Shown here in pieces: positions 1,355 to 8,661 of a stretch of 36,502 nt of DNA. The first letter of the stretch is position 1; the number at the start of each line of letters is the position of its first letter. The notes below the pieces were generated by a model. The model was not told the origin of the DNA, searched no databases, and saw only the letters and a list, made by a program, of their open reading frames with translations. The position numbers and the translations under genes were made by a program. The DNA comes from Chloroflexota bacterium (GTDB lineage: Bacteria; Chloroflexota; Anaerolineae; Anaerolineales; Villigracilaceae). The stretch spans positions 1 to 36,502 of the forward strand of contig SXKT01000053.1 in assembly GCA_005778035.1 (NCBI GenBank), in the 5' to 3' direction.

Positions 1355-2317
1355 CTATTTGTTAACGATCCAGGTACCCGTTTCGCCTTTGAGGGCGCGG
1401 CCGATATTTGCCGGATTGGTGATCAGGGCTTTTCCGTTCGGGTTGTTTTCCAGATACCAAATGATCGCCTGAACCTTGGGGGCCATAGAGCCTTTGGCAA
1501 AGTGGGTTCCTTCGGCCATGTAAGCTTTGGCTTCAGCCAAGGTTAACTTGTCGAGCCATTTTTGGTCGGGCTTGCCAAAATTGATGGCGACTTTTTCCAC
1601 CGCGGTAGAGATGATGAACAGGTCTGCCTTCAATTCGCTTGCAAGCAGGGAGGATGCGTAATCCTTATCCACTACTGCTGCAACCCCTTCGTAATTGCCA
1701 TCACCTGGGTCGATCACCGGGATGCCGCCACCACCAACGGTGATGGTAACAATACCTTTGTCGATCAGGGTCTCGACGGTTTCCAGTTCAACGATCTCCT
1801 TGGGCAGCGGTGAAGCTACCACCCGGCGATAACCGCGGCCGGCATCTTCAACAACGGTCCAGCCTTGTTCGGCAACGCGCCTGTCGGCTTCCTCTTTGCT
1901 CATAAAACCACCGATCGGTTTTGCGGGTTTGGAGAATGCCGGGTCGTCTCGGTCTACCAAGGTTTGGGTCACAACTGTCACTACCTTCTTGCGGATCTGC
2001 CTTTGGTAGAGGATGTTTTGCAAATTTTGTTGCAAAGCATAACCGATCGCGCCTTGGCTATCCGCGCCACACACATCCAGCGGAACTTCGTGCATACCTT
2101 CCACTTTGGCTGCGATCTCTGACCTGCGCAAGATGAACCCTACCTGCGGTCCATTGCCGTGGCCGATCGCAACTTCCCAACCATCTTCAACCAGGTCAGC
2201 GATGTGAAGTGCGGTCTCTTTTGCGGCCAAGTATTGGTCTTCGACCCGAACATGCCGTTCATCCAAGATCAACGAATTGCCGCCAATGGCGATCACTGCA
2301 AGTTTGTTGCGAGACAT
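1355..2317 (-). CDS. arcC: Carbamate kinase (YqeA/ArcC type)
   Basis: Carbamate kinase transfers phosphate between carbamoyl phosphate and ADP; in catabolism it yields ATP, CO2 and ammonia. The 320 residues match the usual family length. Amino-acid-kinase motifs are visible: AIGGNSL near residue 11, GHGNGPQVG near 53, the VGGGGIPV segment near 193, and the VDKDYASSLLA and KGSMAPKV segments toward the C-terminus. The start follows a GGAGA Shine-Dalgarno sequence and lies 10 bp after the carbamoyltransferase stop, so it is the last gene of the operon. Its place directly behind a transcarbamylase indicates a fermentative ATP-recovery role, as in arginine, agmatine, allantoin and purine degradation clusters. 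It lacks an arginine deiminase partner here, so the ADI pathway is unlikely. Confidence 0.95.
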   Translation of the reverse strand: MSRNKLAVIAIGGNSLILDERHVRVEDQYLAAKETALHIADLVEDGWEVAIGHGNGPQVGFILRRSEIAAKVEGMHEVPLDVCGADSQGAIGYALQQNLQNILYQRQIRKKVVTVVTQTLVDRDDPAFSKPAKPIGGFMSKEEADRRVAEQGWTVVEDAGRGYRRVVASPLPKEIVELETVETLIDKGIVTITVGGGGIPVIDPGDGNYEGVAAVVDKDYASSLLASELKADLFIISTAVEKVAINFGKPDQKWLDKLTLAEAKAYMAEGTHFAKGSMAPKVQAIIWYLENNPNGKALITNPANIGRALKGETGTWIVNK

Positions 2318-2327
2318 TAAATTTCTC

Positions 2328-3317
2328 CTATGCCATTGTGAGTGCCATCACAGCCTTTTGGGCGTGAAGGCGGTTCTCGGCTTGGTCAAATACAACACTG
2401 TTCGGGCCATCCAAAACACTGCTGGTTACTTCAATGTCACGGTCAGCGGGCAATGGGTGCATGTAAATGGCGTCTTTTTTGGCTACGCTCAGTTTGTCGT
2501 CATCCATGATCCAATGCTTGTACATATCCTGAAGGCGCTTGCCCTCTACTTTGTCGGTGGTGGTCAGCAATGGGCCCCAGCTCTTGGCATAGATCACATC
2601 GGCATCTTCGCAGGCGGCTTTCATGCCATCCTTGGTGTCGATGATCTCGAATTTGGTGCCGGCGATGGCGGCTTGTTCCTGCGCCTGGGCAACAATATCG
2701 GGCATTAACGGGAACTCAGGCGGGTAAGCAAGGGTTACATCCATGCCAAAGCGCGGCATCTGCAAGATCAAGGATTGGGGTACAGAAATGGGTTTGAGGT
2801 AAGAAGCAGCGTATGCCCAGGAAACAACGATCTTTTTCTTGCGCAGGTCCTTGCCTTTTTTCTCCTGAATGGTCATCAGGTCGGCCAGGCATTGGAAGGG
2901 GTGGTAAATATCGCATTGCATGTTCAGTACTGGGGCACGGCTGCTTTTAGCTACCGAGTTCAGGTACTTGTTGCCATCGCCAAAATCACAGTGGCGAATG
3001 GCGATGCCATCAAAATAGCGGCCATAGATCTCACCGATCTCGATAGGGGTATCGCCATGGGAGATCTGGGTGGTGTCGCTGTCAATGAATGCGCCATGGC
3101 CGCCCAGCTGGGCCATGCCGGCTTCGAAGGAGCCACGGGTGCGAGTGGAGGAGAAGAAGAACAACATCGCCAACACCTTGTCGCGAAGGTAAGGGTGTGG
3201 TTCGCCGAGGGCGCGTTTCTTCTTCAGATCCCACGCCACTTCCAATACGGTATCTACTTCTTCTTTGGTGAAGTCAAGGTCACCAATGAAGTCGCGGCCA
3301 CGAAAATTAGTTTGCAT
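2328..3317 (-). CDS. ygeW: YgeW-like carbamoyltransferase
   Basis: This is a 329-residue member of the aspartate/ornithine carbamoyltransferase superfamily. The carbamoyl-phosphate motif SSTRTR is near residue 58. Segments NMQCDIYHPFQCLADL and SYLKPISVPQ closely resemble E. coli YgeW as I recall it; the second is the proline-rich loop associated with the knotted transcarbamylases. The second-substrate motif reads HPLPADRD rather than the HCLP of ornithine, acetylornithine and YgeW enzymes, so the carbamoyl acceptor may differ. It is also shorter than E. coli YgeW (about 396 residues). The operon context with carbamate kinase suggests it runs toward carbamoyl phosphate by phosphorolysis of a ureido compound. 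The true substrate cannot be told from sequence. The start follows TAGGAGAA; the gap to the upstream gene is 46 bp. Confidence 0.85.
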   Translation of the reverse strand: MQTNFRGRDFIGDLDFTKEEVDTVLEVAWDLKKKRALGEPHPYLRDKVLAMLFFFSSTRTRGSFEAGMAQLGGHGAFIDSDTTQISHGDTPIEIGEIYGRYFDGIAIRHCDFGDGNKYLNSVAKSSRAPVLNMQCDIYHPFQCLADLMTIQEKKGKDLRKKKIVVSWAYAASYLKPISVPQSLILQMPRFGMDVTLAYPPEFPLMPDIVAQAQEQAAIAGTKFEIIDTKDGMKAACEDADVIYAKSWGPLLTTTDKVEGKRLQDMYKHWIMDDDKLSVAKKDAIYMHPLPADRDIEVTSSVLDGPNSVVFDQAENRLHAQKAVMALTMA

Positions 3318-3363
3318 AAAAATATTCTCCTAAAAAAGTATCTGGTTGGTTCCAGTAGTTCAC

Positions 3364-4557
3364 TTATTTGATCAGCGAGGGCAAAACCGCGTAAAACTCG
3401 GTCGCCTTTACCATATCGATCAAAGAGACAGAGTCGCGCACGGTGTGAGCGGTTTCTTCATCTCCAGGGCCAAAGCCAATGGAAGGGATGCCGGCTTTGC
3501 CAGCCCAGTAAATGCCATTGGTCGAGAAATTCCACTTGCTGCTTGGTTTGTCTTCCAAACCGATCGCAACGCGGGCAGCCTGCCCGGCTTGCACCAGCGG
3601 GTGGGTCTCTTCATAAGCCCATGCCGGGAAGTATTTGTCTACCGGGAAGACAAAGCCGGTATAGGAAGGTTCATCGTAGAATAATTCCTCAACCTTTACG
3701 GTATCCTTAAATTCCGCCGGGATCAAATCTTCAACTTGTTTTTTAACACCTTCCTTGGTTTCACCAAAGGTCATACGGCGGTCAATGAAGATCACAGCCT
3801 CATCGGGAACGGCATTGATGGAGGGGGTTTGGACGGTCATATCGCTTACGGTGATCTTGCCATGGCCCAGGAAGGGATGGTCGCCCAATTTTGGTTCAAG
3901 ATCGCGGATGCCGGCGATGACGGGCAGCAATTTGTAAATGGCGTTATCGCCCAAATGGTTGGAAGCAGCGTGTGCGCTGCGGCCTTTGGCGGTTACTTTC
4001 ATCTCCAATCGGCCTTTGTGGCCGCGGTAGATGTTCATTTTGGTGGGTTCGCCAATAACAACAAAATCGGGCCTCACTTTGGGGTCTACTTCAACAAAGG
4101 TGTTGGGGGCAATGCCATCGCACCATTCTTCCATATTGCCAAAGTAATAGGCGGTCCAGCCATCCAACATGCCCAAATCACGGGCAAAAGCCAAACCGTA
4201 AACCATGCCGGGGGTGCTGCCTTTTTCATCACAAGCGCCGCGGGCATACAAAATGTCGTTCTCTACCTTTCCTACGAACGGGTCCCACTCCCACTCGGTG
4301 GGGTCGCCAACGCCGACGGTATCGATGTGGCTGTCATAGACGATCGTCCGGGGTCCATTGCCAATGCGGCCGAGGATGTTGCCCATTTTATCGAAACGGA
4401 CCTCATCGAAGCCGAGCTTTCGCATTTCCTCGGCGATTCGTTCGCCGACCGGGCCCAGTTGCGATTCCATGGACGGGATGGCGCAGATCTCACGCATGAA
4501 CTTGATAATGTCCTCTTTGTGTTCTGCTACCTTTGCCTGAATTTCTTTTACACTCAT
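3364..4557 (-). CDS. ygeY: YgeY-like M20 metallohydrolase
   Basis: This 397-residue protein belongs to the M20 peptidase/deacylase family. It shows the dinuclear-metal motifs: YDSHIDTVGVGD near residue 75, ARGACDEKG near 110, NMEEWCDG near 145 and the GEPTKMNIYRGHKGRLE lid-domain entry near 175. These match the group annotated as YgeY, 'selenium metabolism-linked hydrolase', which lies beside selenium-dependent purine hydroxylase genes in other anaerobes. A likely job is hydrolysis of an amide or ureido intermediate. The ATG at 4557 is preferred over upstream starts because a GGAGG box lies just before it and homology begins there. The upstream extension would overlap the regulator gene. The next gene upstream ends 22 bp before it. 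Confidence 0.88.
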   Translation of the reverse strand: MSVKEIQAKVAEHKEDIIKFMREICAIPSMESQLGPVGERIAEEMRKLGFDEVRFDKMGNILGRIGNGPRTIVYDSHIDTVGVGDPTEWEWDPFVGKVENDILYARGACDEKGSTPGMVYGLAFARDLGMLDGWTAYYFGNMEEWCDGIAPNTFVEVDPKVRPDFVVIGEPTKMNIYRGHKGRLEMKVTAKGRSAHAASNHLGDNAIYKLLPVIAGIRDLEPKLGDHPFLGHGKITVSDMTVQTPSINAVPDEAVIFIDRRMTFGETKEGVKKQVEDLIPAEFKDTVKVEELFYDEPSYTGFVFPVDKYFPAWAYEETHPLVQAGQAARVAIGLEDKPSSKWNFSTNGIYWAGKAGIPSIGFGPGDEETAHTVRDSVSLIDMVKATEFYAVLPSLIK

Positions 4558-4579
4558 ACTGCCTCCAAAAATAAGATTT

Positions 4580-5302
4580 CTATAAACTGTTTTTTTCCAC
4601 CCGACGAACAATGTGGAAATTGAAATATCCGGGTAGGAAGTAACTATGGGAGTAATCAACCACTCTTCCTGATGCGGTGTAAAGCTTGGCGGTGAATTGC
4701 AGCAAGACATCACCCCGTTGAATCTCCAATTTTTTAGCGACTTGCGTGCTGGCATTAACCGCAGTGATGTTGGTATAGGAGATGGTTAGAGGGTCACCAC
4801 GCTTGATCAAAAAATCGAGCACGGAACCATTAAATTTGGTTTTCAGCTCATCGGCGCTTAACACCTCGGATGGGAGTTCGTCCACCAGGTATGCGACTGG
4901 TCGGGTATCGGCGCTCATTGTTCGCGCAATTCGAACAATTTCCGAACCTTCAGCAATTTCAAGCTGAGAAGCTGTTTCAGAATCTGCCGTGATCTCGAGT
5001 ATCTCAACCGGGCCTGGACCAACATTTTGGCCGGTTCTCCTTGCCAAGGTCAACATCGATTCCAAGATCTCCAACCCATCATCGATGATGGTGGGTGTGC
5101 CTACCACAAATGTGCCGGAGCCTTGGCGGCGACGGATCTGGCCCTGGGTTTCAAACATGCGCATAGCTTCGCGCAGGGTTGCCCTGCTAACTCCCAACAT
5201 TTTTGCCAGATCGGGTTCCGATGGCAATCGTGAACCATTGGGGTATTTTTTTAACAGTTCACCAAGTTCGGCTTGTAATTTCTGAAATGGAAAATTTGCC
5301 AT
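4580..5302 (-). CDS. GntR/HutC-family transcriptional regulator with UTRA domain
   Basis: The protein has 240 residues. The N-terminal winged helix covers about residues 5-70, with the hallmark LPSEPDLAKMLGVSRATLRE followed by the wing segment RRRQGSGTFV. The rest (about 85-235) is a UTRA ligand-binding domain, with the family-typical AYLVDELP and DYSHSYFLPGYFNF segments. It sits between the deaminase and ygeY inside the operon, preceded by an AGGAG box. It probably represses this operon and responds to a purine or ureido metabolite. The 28-bp palindrome over the operon promoter is its best candidate operator. The ligand is unknown. Confidence 0.9.
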   Translation of the reverse strand: MANFPFQKLQAELGELLKKYPNGSRLPSEPDLAKMLGVSRATLREAMRMFETQGQIRRRQGSGTFVVGTPTIIDDGLEILESMLTLARRTGQNVGPGPVEILEITADSETASQLEIAEGSEIVRIARTMSADTRPVAYLVDELPSEVLSADELKTKFNGSVLDFLIKRGDPLTISYTNITAVNASTQVAKKLEIQRGDVLLQFTAKLYTASGRVVDYSHSYFLPGYFNFHIVRRVEKNSL

Positions 5303-5341
5303 ATCAGCTCCTGTGGGTCGTACAAAAAGGTTGGACCTTGT

Positions 5342-6724
5342 TCAAGCAACTAACCTTTTGGCGGCTTTGTTGTGTTTTTCAGCTAATTTTTGGGCATCCA
5401 GCGTTTGCAAAACCCCATTTTTTACCACAAATTTGCCACCGACAAGGGTATGGTCTACATTTTTTGGCTGGCAAAAAACCACCGCGGAAACGGGGTCGTG
5501 CACAGCGCCACCCGCCAGGTCCAGGCTATTCAGGTTGATGGCAAAAAGATCGGCACACTTGCCGACTTCCAAAGAGCCAATGTCGTTCCTTCCCAAAACA
5601 GCCGCTCCGCCACGGGTGCCCAACCAAAGGGCTTCGCGGGCGGTCATTAATTTTCGGGCAGGGTCATCAGATAAGGAGTAACCGGTGATACCTTCTTTGA
5701 GGCGTGATAGATATAACGCCTGTCTTACTTCGCCCAGCAAATGGGAACCATCATTCGAAGCCGATCCATCGACCCCAAGACCCACATTAACCCCAGCCTT
5801 TAAATATTCTTTTACCGGCGCAATGCCAGATGCCAATCTCATATTTGAGGTTGGGCAATGGGCAACACCGCATTTATGGCGGGCAAACAGATCGATCTCT
5901 GCCGGGTTGACATAAATCGAGTGGGCGAACCACACGTCCCGGCCAACCCAGTCCACCGATTCCATATAACCCGCAGGCCGGTAACCGAATTTTTGCAAAC
6001 AAAACTGCTCCTCGTCTTCGGTTTCGGCAAGGTGGGTATGTAAATGGACATTATATTTGCGAGCCAATGCCGCTGATTCTTTCATCAGGGTGCCGGTTAC
6101 GCTAAATGGAGAGCAAGGAGCCAGAACTACCTGGGTCATCGACCCGGGTTTGGGGTTGTGGTATTTTTGGATCAGCCGTTCAGAATCGGCCAGAATATGG
6201 TCTTCCTTATCTGTCACGCTATCGGGTGGCAAGCCACCCTGCGATTGGCCCAAGGACATCGATCCACGGGAGGCGTGTAACCTGACGCCGATCTCCTGGC
6301 CGGCCAAAATCTCATCATCCAGTTTTGAACCGTTGGGGAATAGATACAAATGGTCGCTTGCTGTGGTGCAACCGCTTAGCGCCAATTCTGCCAAGGCAGT
6401 TTGGGTGCTGGTGTAAATGTCTTCAGGATTTAGCTTTGCCCAAATTGGGTAAAGGGTTGTAAGCCAGTTGAACAAGTTGGCATTTTGGGCAGCAGGTATG
6501 ACCCGGGTAAGGGTTTGGTAAAAATGGTGGTGCGTGTTTACCAATCCCGGCAATACCAAATGTCCAGAAAGATCCACTACCTCATCTGCAATTTGGGGTA
6601 ATTGATCGCTGGGTCCAATTTGTGTGATAAATCCATCGACAATATAAATTCCGCCATCCGGGTATTCCGATTGGTGGTCGTCCATGGTGGCAATATAAGC
6701 GTGTTTGATGAGTAGGGTGGACAT
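5342..6724 (-). CDS. 8-oxoguanine deaminase-like amidohydrolase
   Basis: This is an amidohydrolase-superfamily protein of 460 residues. Visible metal and catalytic motifs are NTHHH near residue 65, HTHLAETEDE near 230, AHSIYV near 270 and GLGVDGSASND near 317. The segment after the first motif (YQTLTRVIPAAQNANLFNWL) is typical of the clade characterised as 8-oxoguanine deaminase, which converts 8-oxoguanine to urate; older annotations call it hydroxydechloroatrazine hydrolase or SsnA. Guanine deaminase or SsnA function is the main alternative. I place the start at 6724, where GGAACAGG lies about 10 bp upstream; an in-frame ATG at 6760 falls inside the promoter palindrome and has no ribosome site. 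It is the first gene of the operon. Confidence 0.85.
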   Translation of the reverse strand: MSTLLIKHAYIATMDDHQSEYPDGGIYIVDGFITQIGPSDQLPQIADEVVDLSGHLVLPGLVNTHHHFYQTLTRVIPAAQNANLFNWLTTLYPIWAKLNPEDIYTSTQTALAELALSGCTTASDHLYLFPNGSKLDDEILAGQEIGVRLHASRGSMSLGQSQGGLPPDSVTDKEDHILADSERLIQKYHNPKPGSMTQVVLAPCSPFSVTGTLMKESAALARKYNVHLHTHLAETEDEEQFCLQKFGYRPAGYMESVDWVGRDVWFAHSIYVNPAEIDLFARHKCGVAHCPTSNMRLASGIAPVKEYLKAGVNVGLGVDGSASNDGSHLLGEVRQALYLSRLKEGITGYSLSDDPARKLMTAREALWLGTRGGAAVLGRNDIGSLEVGKCADLFAINLNSLDLAGGAVHDPVSAVVFCQPKNVDHTLVGGKFVVKNGVLQTLDAQKLAEKHNKAAKRLVA

Positions 6725-6798: not shown

Positions 6799-7670
6799 TT
6801 AACCGTGTTGGGGTTCGGTTTTGTGGCTGAATACAGTTTTGGCTTGCGAAAGCACAACAGCAAGGAAAATAATGGCGCAACCAACGATCTGAATTGGCAG
6901 TAACTGGTCCTTTAATATCCACCACCCGGCCAAAGCGGCAAAAACCGATTCCAATGAGAGGATCAAGGCTGCATCGGTAGGAGGGGTGTGTCGTTGCCCC
7001 AAACCTGAAGGGTGTAACCAATGCTGATGGACAAGATCGCCCGGTACAAAACAGAACCGATGAAAACCGGAACGAACATTACAGAAGTGTCTTCCAGAAA
7101 AAAGCCGATCACCATATTTAACAGGCCACTAACCAAAAACTGACCAACCGAAAAACTGACCGGCTCGTATTGGCTGGCATATTTGCCCAAAATGATAATG
7201 TGCAACGTCCAAAAGATAGCGCCGGCGATCTCCAAGAAATCTCCGCTTTGAACCTGATACTTGCCGGCGGTACTCAACAAAAATGCGCCTACACCCGCCA
7301 TAGCAACCGCGAGAATATCAGCCTTGGCTGGTTTTTCTCGGAACAACAGATACAAAGCGAAGGGGGTGAATACTGTGTACAAGCTGGTTAAAAATCCAGC
7401 ATTGGCAACCTTTGTGTAAAACAAGCCAACCTGCTGGAAGGTGCTTGCGACCAGCAGTACCACCCCGGCGATCACCATCCAAAACCACTGCCGGGTTGGT
7501 ACATGAATATTTTTGGGGATGAACGGTAACAATACTATGGATGCCAACATAAAGCCAAGCCCGTTATACAGGTATGCTGATTTATAACTCGCGGCGAGAT
7601 TTTGAGCTACAAACGCGGTACCCCAAATGATCGATACCGCCAGTAAAGTTAGGTCAGCTTTGATTCGCAT
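6799..7670 (-). pseudogene. EamA/DMT-family transporter with a -1 frameshift
   Basis: Two reading frames together give one drug/metabolite-type transporter of about 290 residues with ten predicted membrane helices in two EamA repeats. The first frame (from 7670) encodes about 225 residues up to GYTLQVWG. The second frame (ending at 6799) continues with GQRHTPPTDAALILSLESVF, the family's usual last third. The break is at a run of four G residues on the minus strand (6997-7000), where five would restore the frame. It is either a true inactivating mutation or an indel error in a homopolymer. Substrates of this family are metabolites or amino acids; a purine link to the neighbouring operon is possible but unproven. 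Confidence 0.85.
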
Positions 7671-7682
7671 GATAATTGGCTG

Positions 7683-7716
7683 ATTATATCAGGCGGCGTG
7701 GTGCGGGGTTTATAAT
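7683..7716. promoter_or_regulatory. Divergent -10 boxes between eamA and the epimerase gene
   Basis: TATAAT occurs on the minus strand at 7688-7683, 12 bp before the transporter ATG, and on the plus strand at 7711-7716, 21 bp before the epimerase ATG. No convincing -35 hexamers were seen. Confidence 0.45.
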
Positions 7717-7737
7717 TGCTTAAAAGGAATAAATTCA

Positions 7738-8661
7738 ATGAATGTGGTCATTTTTGGAGGAACCGGGTTTATTGGCAAAGCCCTTGTTGCGCATTTAGCC
7801 GAGGCCGGGCATCAGTGTTCGGTAATAACCCGGCGGCAATATTCAATGGCAACGAACGGCAACCGGTTTGTGCAATGGGATGGGAGAACTGTAGCAGAGA
7901 TTGTGCCAGTATTGGCAGATGCCGACGCGATCGTTAACCTGGCGGGTGAGACCATTGGCAAGTGGCCTTGGACCAACGCCCACAAACAACGGGTTATAAA
8001 CAGCCGAGTCCAATTGGGGCAGCAAATCAGCCAGGCCTTTGTATCGGGCTCAGTCCCTTCCAATAAACAAAGGGTGTATATCCAATCCAGCGGAGTAGGT
8101 TTCTATGGGGATAACCTTCAGAACCCCATAGATGAGAAGGCGGCCAATGGGAATGACTTCTTATCCCAGGTTGCCAGTGAGTGGGAGGCATCCAGCCAGG
8201 CTTTGGCCACAATGCCATCGGTCCGCAGTTGTGTTATTAGAACTTCCTTGGTTTTAGGCAGGAATGCAGGGGCATTGCCGATGATGGCTCTGCCGGTTTT
8301 GCTATTTGCCGGGGGGGCGCTGGGAGATGGAAACCAAGGGGTCAGCTGGATCCACATCCAGGATGAGGTTCGGGCTATTGCGCACCTGATAGAAAATCCT
8401 GGATGCGAGGGTGTCTTCAACTTGTCATCACCGCAACCCCTATCCAATCGCCAATTTATGCGAACGCTTGCGAAAGTGCTTGGCCGCCCATTTTGGTTAC
8501 CAGCACCGGCATTTTTGCTAAAACTTGTCCTCGGTGAGATGAGCAGCCTGCTGCTGACCGGCCAATATGCAATTCCCGCTGCGCTTTTGGCATCAGGTTT
8601 TACTTTCATTTATCCAGATTTGGAAACAGCCTTGGGTGATATTTATTCCCCCAAAAAGTGA
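7738..8661 (+). CDS. TIGR01777-family NAD(P)-dependent epimerase (YfcH-like)
   Basis: The 307-residue protein starts with the Rossmann motif VVIFGGTGFIGKALVAHL. It contains the NLAGETIGKWPWTNAHKQRV and SSGVGFYG segments typical of the YfcH/SDR39U1 group of extended short-chain dehydrogenases. The C-terminal 50 residues (PFWLPAPAFLLKLVLGEMSS onward) match the DUF1731 tail. The catalytic tyrosine lies in GFYG and is retained. The start follows AAAGGA. The biological substrate of this family is not established. The next gene starts 9 bp after its stop, so the two are probably co-transcribed. Confidence 0.9.
   Translation: MNVVIFGGTGFIGKALVAHLAEAGHQCSVITRRQYSMATNGNRFVQWDGRTVAEIVPVLADADAIVNLAGETIGKWPWTNAHKQRVINSRVQLGQQISQAFVSGSVPSNKQRVYIQSSGVGFYGDNLQNPIDEKAANGNDFLSQVASEWEASSQALATMPSVRSCVIRTSLVLGRNAGALPMMALPVLLFAGGALGDGNQGVSWIHIQDEVRAIAHLIENPGCEGVFNLSSPQPLSNRQFMRTLAKVLGRPFWLPAPAFLLKLVLGEMSSLLLTGQYAIPAALLASGFTFIYPDLETALGDIYSPKK

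Follow-up and report, generated by a model that had tools for sequence, protein, structure and literature searches.

The reductive breakdown of urate was shown in E. coli in 2025, its enzymology comes from E. coli and C. difficile, and its biochemistry was resolved only in that year, in gut bacteria (PMC12507026). In this pathway urate is converted to yanthine, a reductive dearomatization follows, and SsnA and HyuA open the rings to yield diureidopropionate (PMC12507026, PMC12990295). Then, YgeW moves one of the ureido groups onto phosphate, YgeY removes the other one, and YgeX acts last (PMC12507026, PMC12990295). A putative F420-dependent reductase has already been named in SsnA clusters of Chloroflexota (PMC12507026). 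A carbamoyltransferase has also been proposed to take part in purine breakdown in Rubrobacter, where the ureidoglycine transcarbamylase (UGTCase), a pseudo-aspartate carbamoyltransferase (pseudo-ATCase) encoded beside a carbamate kinase, would replace an amidohydrolase (PMC4016543). PMC4581275 and PMC4016543 disagree on the subgroup of these enzymes that bears the H(T/S)LP motif, which is given for UGTCase itself in the former and for subgroups 2 and 3 in the latter; no reaction is named for subgroup 3 in the available portion of PMC4016543. In Nocardioides sp. JS614 a pseudo-ATCase gene adjoins ygeW, xdhABC, and hyuA (PMC4016543).

The stretch of DNA analyzed here, referred to as the window, comprises the 36,502 nucleotides of contig SXKT01000053.1 (assembly GCA_005778035.1) from a Chloroflexota bacterium of the order Anaerolineales. 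Five genes on its minus strand, between positions 1355 and 6724, encode an 8-oxoguanine deaminase-like amidohydrolase, a GntR regulator, YgeY, a YgeW-like carbamoyltransferase (CT), and a carbamate kinase, in the order given by the original prediction, a note made from the sequence before this analysis. This cluster probably forms the last part of an anaerobic reductive urate pathway in Anaerolineales, where ureido groups are cleaved and ATP is formed, and belongs to a variant linked to F420. The genes, their families, their linkage, and their co-occurrence were observed here; the reactions come from the work on E. coli and C. difficile, and all substrates named for this organism are those that we infer from it.

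The five gene products and their likely transcript

NCBIfam curated cut-offs were used for naming the proteins and Pfam for their domains. The first gene of the row (5342-6724, P0005) encodes a protein that reaches the equivalog cut-off of the 8-oxoguanine deaminase model NF006055 (664.1 bits, cut-off 532). Its best solved relatives are 3hpa, deposited as "amidohydrolase" (555.6 bits), and 7ww2, an "8-oxoguanine deaminase" (508.1 bits), and its identity to E. coli GuaD is just 27%. The enzyme is proposed to feed the pathway by converting 8-oxoguanine to urate. The regulator (4580-5302, P0004) includes PF00392 and the UTRA ligand domain PF07702, both above cut-off, and none of the NCBIfam models among its matches listed reaches the cut-off. 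YgeY (3364-4557, P0003), an M20 metallohydrolase that belongs to the group called clade A below, scores 476.5 bits with TIGR03526 (cut-off 321.5) and is 41% identical to the E. coli protein. The carbamate kinase (1355-2317, P0001) passes both TIGR00746 (368.5 vs 358.25 bits) and NF009007 (393.3 vs 266 bits) and shares 51% identity with E. coli YqeA. With these cut-offs passed, the labels that the original prediction had given to the deaminase, YgeY, and the kinase hold, and the formation of ATP from carbamoyl phosphate is supported as the likely role of the latter.

The carbamoyltransferase (2328-3317, P0002) had to be named by sequence comparison. It stays under every NCBIfam cut-off listed, including those of the two YgeW models (172.9 of 500 and 182.9 of 453 bits), the ornithine carbamoyltransferase (OTC) models (246.1 of 306 and 228.3 of 280.85 bits), and the best AOTC model (233.2 of 288 bits). 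Its solved relatives by sequence are headed by the OTC 1pvv (204 bits), with AOTC structures (168-171 bits) and YgeW 3q98 (151 bits) next, and its identity to E. coli YgeW is 33%. Reading of the alignment alone reveals carbamoyl-phosphate motifs and the signature of the knotted group, for which a proline-rich loop and an extended 120's loop are the criteria (PMC4581275); in CT the extension takes the form of an insert. The structure model of P0002 (mean pLDDT 54.9) was too poor to read a knot. The YgeW residues Q98, Q160, S200, K203, and K270, whose roles with the second substrate are described in PMC4581275, are all kept in CT as Q84, Q134, S172, K175, and K245, and the five are invariant in the 10 rows of alignment A1 and the 16 of alignment A2; AOTC and SOTC carry Glu at the place of Q160 (PMC4581275). 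A sixth polar YgeW residue, D124, falls in an alignment gap in CT. An ordinary OTC was rejected, as the scores are under the OTC cut-offs and the DxxxSMG motif is missing, with AKSWGPL in its place. With 329 residues against 396 in YgeW, CT is reduced at its two termini and around the 240's loop, and it lacks the extra segments of YgeW, namely additional terminal helices and an extension of that loop. Also, the H[AVC]LP motif of YgeW-type enzymes is replaced by HPLP in CT. Since the pocket residues are kept, the HPLP motif differs, and the extra segments are missing, we say that CT would work like YgeW, yet we do not class it as YgeW. Of the label YgeW in the original prediction, the second-substrate residues and the knotted-loop signature speak for it, and the failure with both YgeW models speaks against it.

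The intergenic gaps from the deaminase to the kinase, taken from the coordinates, are 39, 22, 46, and 10 bp. An intrinsic terminator with a 17-pair stem, a 4-base loop, and a T-rich tail lies 3′ of the kinase (1335-1298, minus strand), and a weak promoter-like site with 10/12 matches precedes the deaminase (6789-6761, minus strand). Because the gaps are short and a terminator follows the kinase, the five genes are likely one transcript. The claim of a single transcript thus finds its support in the gaps and the strong terminator and not in promoter-like sites, which are barely above chance in the region (8 observed, mean of 6.5 in shuffled sequences). A tblastn comparison of the window with 35 reference proteins matched only the five genes, and there was no match for xdh, ygfK, ygeX, ssnA, or a hydantoinase.

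Pathway genes in the genome and in its relatives

Within a genome of 1.63 Mb, the window makes up contig C49, and the pathway genes were surveyed over 61 genomes, i.e., this one and 60 relatives, not all of which are complete. Two other contigs of the genome hold what the window lacks. On contig C6, SsnA (C6:15785-17104; 451 bits, cut-off 455.5, model positions 1-440 of 441) stands in a row with an F420-dependent NADP oxidoreductase, the F420 ligase CofE, and a luciferase-family protein (Pfam names), the last of which is 85% identical to that in the SsnA row of a relative (L123). On contig C39, a Bmp (PnrA-like) lipoprotein, an ABC ATPase, and two permeases share a row with the FAD subunit of xanthine dehydrogenase (XDH), XDH, and a pyridoxal phosphate-dependent enzyme that is 64% identical to a threonine-synthase-like (ThrC-like) enzyme of relative locus L117. 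The same contig encodes a D-hydantoinase (C39:40845-42230; 515.8 bits, cut-off 393.25) with 36% identity to E. coli HyuA. SsnA was above cut-off in 43 of the 61 genomes and an XDH-family domain was present in 59, with three matches in the genome of the window. The link to anaerobic purine and ureido catabolism that had been predicted is supported by SsnA, XDH-family proteins, a hydantoinase, and a PnrA-type transporter within the genome. The accompanying statement that the usual partners are absent was correct for YgeX and YgfK, neither of which was above cut-off in any of the 61 genomes, and for xdh as far as the window goes; since C39 carries XDH, that gene is missing from the window and not from the genome. 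The proposed search for distant copies recovered xdh in the own genome and, for ygfK, fragments in G005 and G032 and a full-length homologue, 39% identical to E. coli YgfK, at locus L238.

The YgfK fragment of G005 (G005:C84:5863-7149, locus L260; 630 bits, model positions 1-423) comes from a close relative, with a CT 97% identical to that of the window, and because of it close relatives of this organism may possess YgfK. Further partial matches, to the middle part of YgfK, were seen in G014, G016, G022, G023, G024, and G056 (118-143 bits). A second SsnA copy in L127 and L132 is 42-43% identical to the SsnA of L123, and a protein of about 830 amino acids encoded near it matches the middle part of YgfK only; the frame in G023 contains two TGA codons.

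For comparison of gene order, 80 named loci were used, the best 80 of at least 559 confirmed relatives from a genome scan; many of them are cut by contig ends. In the 60 relatives, stretches of up to 20 kb were read. All 80 come from Chloroflexota, in which we presume a few of the genus names to be placed. The deaminase, GntR, and CT genes are in order on one strand in 37 of the 49 loci with at least 9 kb upstream of CT, and the kinase lies no more than 1.2 kb downstream of CT in 68 loci, out of 74 that extend far enough to hold it. The gene order is not due to chance, and the check for the same order across Chloroflexota that was asked of this cluster turned out in its favor, as the genes co-occur elsewhere. 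A typical row starts with deaminase, adenine deaminase, and GntR, continues with YgeY and/or a second transferase, and closes with CT and kinase, after which a transporter often comes. Among the 80 loci the deaminase was counted in 46, adenine deaminase in 45, GntR in 56, the kinase in 68, the ABC ATPase in 36, the ThrC-like enzyme in 14, and XDH in eight.

Several rows join partner genes to those of the cluster. In G018 and G023 the row continues with the transporter, the XDH FAD subunit, XDH, and the ThrC-like enzyme (L042 with L117; L043 with L118). Locus L152 has on one strand SsnA (just 40% of its length, where the contig ends), kinase, CT, YgeY, F420 reductase, ABC, BMP, permeases, XDH, and XDH-FAD. 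Locus L153, which comes from a genome lacking CT, combines deaminase, F420 reductase, and YgeY with kinase, transporter, and ThrC-like enzyme. In L238, transporter and XDH are joined by YgeY, second transferase, CT, and kinase, along with the ThrC-like enzyme and YgfK. In L257 a hydantoinase follows the ThrC-like enzyme. SsnA and the luciferase-family protein stand in one row in L113, L123, L125, L126, and L128-L130. In own-genus loci such as L036-L038 and L040-L041 no transporter or XDH adjoins within the stretches read. Of the 61 genomes, 45 have both CT and SsnA, five only CT, four only SsnA, and seven neither (Fisher p 4e-4, uncorrected for kinship). For this count SsnA was taken from the 43 genomes above cut-off plus four scoring 442-454 bits and two with partial matches at 310-312 bits, and CT includes fragments in G006, G015, and G026.

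The SsnA rows of L123 (4526-11063), L124 (5226-10810), and L125-L130 include F420 synthesis genes, with CofC, CofD, and CofE above their cut-offs in L123 and L124. These rows of relatives also hold a PNPOx-type protein, a nitroreductase-family protein, and an NADPH-F420 reductase. Judging by the genes in the row, it is as if F420 were made for the urate pathway. With regard to the ThrC-like enzyme, seven of the nine genomes checked, including the one of the window, have a separate canonical threonine synthase (287-310 bits), which makes it unlikely that the ThrC-like copy is the housekeeping threonine synthase.

Put together, these genes would make up the following pathway, in which the ThrC-like and F420 steps are again ones that we infer. 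Purines would be imported through the PnrA-type ABC transporter, and XDH, plus adenine deaminase in many relatives, would lead to urate, to which the 8-oxoguanine deaminase may add a share from 8-oxoguanine. An XDH-family enzyme would convert urate to yanthine, the luciferase-family F420 reductase would dearomatize yanthine in the place of YgfK, and SsnA and the hydantoinase would open the rings to 2,3-diureidopropionate. CT would phosphorolyze this compound by transferring one carbamoyl group onto phosphate, and the kinase would use the resulting carbamoyl phosphate and ADP to form ATP. YgeY would hydrolyze the other ureido group, and the ThrC-like enzyme may replace YgeX on diaminopropionate. 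Where YgeY is missing, a pseudo-ATCase could move the remaining ureido group onto phosphate for a second ATP, for which the Rubrobacter UGTCase serves as precedent.

The second transferase and the two YgeY clades

In many relatives a second transferase (CT2), 317 amino acids long in L042, lies between YgeY and CT. HSLP is present in 37 of the 40 full-length copies and a VEP string in all 40, where ATCases have HPLP and RxQ; CT2 has therefore the motif pair of pseudo-ATCases, HSLP and VxP instead of HPLP and RxQ. The L042 protein passes one ATCase model (250.7 vs 236.95 bits) and fails three others. The structure model of CT2 was too poor to be of use (mean pLDDT 65.2). Many genomes contain a separate transferase copy with 37-41% identity, and that of G018 (L149) is 45% identical to E. 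coli PyrB.

Nearly every genome with CT has YgeY, CT2, or both, and YgeY splits into two clades that follow CT2; both observations are new here. Among the 50 genomes with CT, 24 have YgeY only, 12 have both, 13 have CT2 only, and one has neither (Fisher p 2.9e-4, uncorrected for kinship). In other words, 49 of them hold YgeY, CT2, or both, and in the exception, G015, CT is a fragment at a contig end. For this count YgeY was accepted at 59% identity or more, so G029 (partial copies, 50 and 61%) and G016 (41%) were scored as lacking it, and G019 was scored as lacking CT2 because its copy has stops. At the level of loci, 67 of those named have 3.6 kb or more upstream, and they divide into YgeY only (30), both (21), CT2 only (15), and neither (one, L244). 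The broken CT2 of G019 (G019:C117:15509-15913) has two stops within its first 135 residues, and the YgeY beside it is intact, as would be expected if the two proteins were redundant.

Among the named loci with a YgeY of full length, the protein is 71-100% identical to that of the window in the 31 rows, window included, where CT2 is absent (only L219 is below 75%), and 62-74% identical in the 20 rows where CT2 is present. A tree of these 51 rows, built without the E. coli outgroup because its branch was implausibly long, separates the 20 CT2-linked rows plus L219 (clade B) from the 30 others (clade A) with a branch support of 100/100. The clades share no residue at 20 columns, 14 of which are between 191 and 262. 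H77, D79, D110, E143, E144, E170, and H371, which we take to be the M20 metal and catalytic residues, are kept in 30/30 rows of clade A and 21/21 of clade B. A single clade of the 20 CT2-associated rows without L219 was not rejected by the AU test (p 0.071). On the YgeY tree, with its 51 rows, the CT2 label changes twice, and on the CT tree, with 68 rows, it does so eight times. Given that the row sets of the trees differ, this is a hint only that YgeY/CT2 cassettes were swapped ahead of a common CT-kinase core. On the CT tree only five independent, well-supported pairs differ in CT2; YgeY changed oppositely in 2.1 of them, in the same sense in 0.1, and not at all in 2.9 (averages; median p 0.5). 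L196 was left out of the YgeY rows, as its copy is split. There, at 6989-8183, a clade-B-like YgeY is split by a frame change beside an intact CT2, which is either real decay or an assembly error; the copy is not a mosaic gene.

The distribution of CT2 suggests a version of the pathway in which both ureido groups would be turned into carbamoyl phosphate, with two ATP per urate. A complete scheme would be an F420-dependent reductive urate pathway with two interchangeable endings, YgeY of clade A with one ATP or a pseudo-ATCase, the enzyme that YgeY of clade B accompanies, with two, a ThrC-like enzyme for YgeX, and F420 genes in the SsnA row. We advance this scheme tentatively and hold it to be possible but on balance somewhat doubtful.

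Other genes around the cluster deserve mention. A protein of about 170 amino acids is encoded between YgeY and CT in several relatives (L066 8565-9089, L036, L040, L043, and L044; a 9-locus cluster), and that of L066 is weakly similar to histidine phosphatases (PF00300, 28.4 vs 21.7 bits). Upstream of the operon, the window contains a transporter gene, presumably of the EamA type (6799-7690, minus strand), with a frame change near 6970 as judged by eye; its ORF 6963-7670 stops early, similar-looking coding sequence continues beyond, and the gene is either genuinely broken or affected by an assembly error. A membrane protein gene (5-1261) converges on the operon and resembles by eye the large kinase-adjacent membrane protein of L042 and L043; Pfam gave no family match for it or for the L043 counterpart. 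Genes for a paralogous CT (37-50% identical to P0002) and for SsnA-like, hydantoinase, and YgeY-like proteins were found in L143, L145, L146, G038:C580, and G046:C96, and perhaps represent a related ureido-acid pathway with a different substrate.

Alternative explanations and comparison with known systems

The original prediction considered that the cluster could be a minimal or alternative route that works without the usual partners. Such a stand-alone route would make urate from 8-oxoguanine, and then carbamoyl phosphate and ATP from some unknown ureido acid, without XDH, SsnA, or hydantoinase. None of these is encoded in the window, and the own-genus loci lacking an adjoining transporter and XDH are in line with it. 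However, the genome holds SsnA, XDH-family proteins, a hydantoinase, and a PnrA-type transporter on other contigs, and L152, L153, and L238 carry partner genes on the same strand as the cluster genes. In addition, urate has a free ureido group only once its rings are opened. The genes on the other contigs and the linked rows of relatives led us to reject this route, which is extremely unlikely. Also very improbable is that the cluster forms the lower part of the oxidative route from urate via allantoin, in which case its carbamoyltransferases would use allantoate or ureidoglycine like the Rubrobacter UGTCase. M20 hydrolases use allantoate too, the CT2 of relatives has the pseudo-ATCase motif HSLP, and Rxyl_2847 is a ureidoglycine transferase encoded beside a carbamate kinase. 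Nonetheless, OHCU decarboxylase, the mark of the oxidative route, was found in one of the 61 genomes (G045, which has no CT) and not in that of the window, and this candidate was rejected on that count; uricase and allantoinase were not themselves searched for. The neighbors are instead SsnA, the F420 reductase, and YgfK.

A broader module for ureido acids from purines, pyrimidines, or pterins, with a main substrate other than urate and reduction of another heterocycle, is unlikely. The entry enzyme is an 8-oxoguanine deaminase and not a guanine deaminase, the transferase is not a canonical YgeW, YgeX is above cut-off nowhere, and the paralogous clusters of L143, L145, and L146 combine SsnA-like, hydantoinase, M20, or CT genes. 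Against it stand the number of genomes with SsnA above cut-off, the conservation of the YgeW pocket residues in CT, and the presence of XDH and adenine deaminase inside the operons of relatives.

The reductive urate pathway linked to F420 is the reading that we prefer, and several observations weigh against it. The genome is 64% complete, its SsnA is slightly under the cut-off, and its XDH-family copies are no more than candidates for the urate-reducing enzyme. The XDH of L117 is below the cut-off of every XDH model listed. The F420 reductase of L123 passes no NCBIfam cut-off, and for this reason the use of F420 is deduced from the luciferase fold family and the adjoining F420 genes. CT fails both YgeW models and differs from YgeW-type enzymes in HPLP. 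No canonical threonine synthase of the score mentioned was found in G027 and G049, which have the ThrC-like enzyme. CT occurs without a detected SsnA in five of 50 genomes (G006, G028, G031, G040, and G055) and SsnA without CT in four of 49 (G014, G017, G050, and G054). Finally, 8-oxoguanine deaminase is an odd main feeder, as E. coli has a guanine deaminase gene near its urate cluster.

A text search of mostly non-subscription literature, figures and supplements outside its reach, found no paper that links 8-oxoguanine deaminase with carbamate kinase and none with at least three of the terms Anaerolineae, xanthine dehydrogenase, adenine deaminase, and carbamate kinase; yanthine, diureidopropionate, or ureidomethyl-hydantoin is mentioned by three. 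In the main text of PMC12507026, figures and supplements aside, neither "8-oxoguanine" nor "threonine synthase" is mentioned. If the proposed pathway is correct, uncultured Chloroflexota from groundwater, lake-cast, and sludge samples, among others, would use F420 as electron carrier and another last lyase, and some lineages would gain two ATP rather than one from the ureido groups of urate. It would also suggest roles for the YgeW-like transferase and for a group of pseudo-ATCases to which the portion of PMC4016543 available assigns no reaction.

As in the pseudo-ATCases, the CT2 of relatives has the HSLP and VxP pair listed for subgroup 3 (PMC4016543). The route of Rubrobacter is oxidative with uricase, whereas the context here is reductive and the window itself has YgeY and not CT2. 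Nocardioides sp. JS614 shares with the relatives two adjoining carbamoyltransferases together with XDH and hydantoinase genes; it is a single case with no reaction assigned and a motif of subgroup 2 rather than 3, according to the portion of PMC4016543 at hand. The Chloroflexota SsnA clusters of PMC12507026 have in common with those described here SsnA and a luciferase-family protein in one row, and the F420 synthesis genes and the second transferase found here are unmentioned for them in the portions of that paper at hand. The cluster of E. coli has the order ygeW-ygeX-ygeY-hyuA-yqeA ... ygfK-ssnA-ygfM-xdhD. Unlike in E. coli, here YgeX and YgfK are not found above cut-off, CT is below the YgeW cut-off, an 8-oxoguanine deaminase stands for GuaD and an ABC transporter for UacT, and the genes are on three contigs. 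Both systems share YgeY, carbamate kinase, SsnA, an XDH-family protein, a hydantoinase, and a YgeW-like transferase in which the pocket residues agree.

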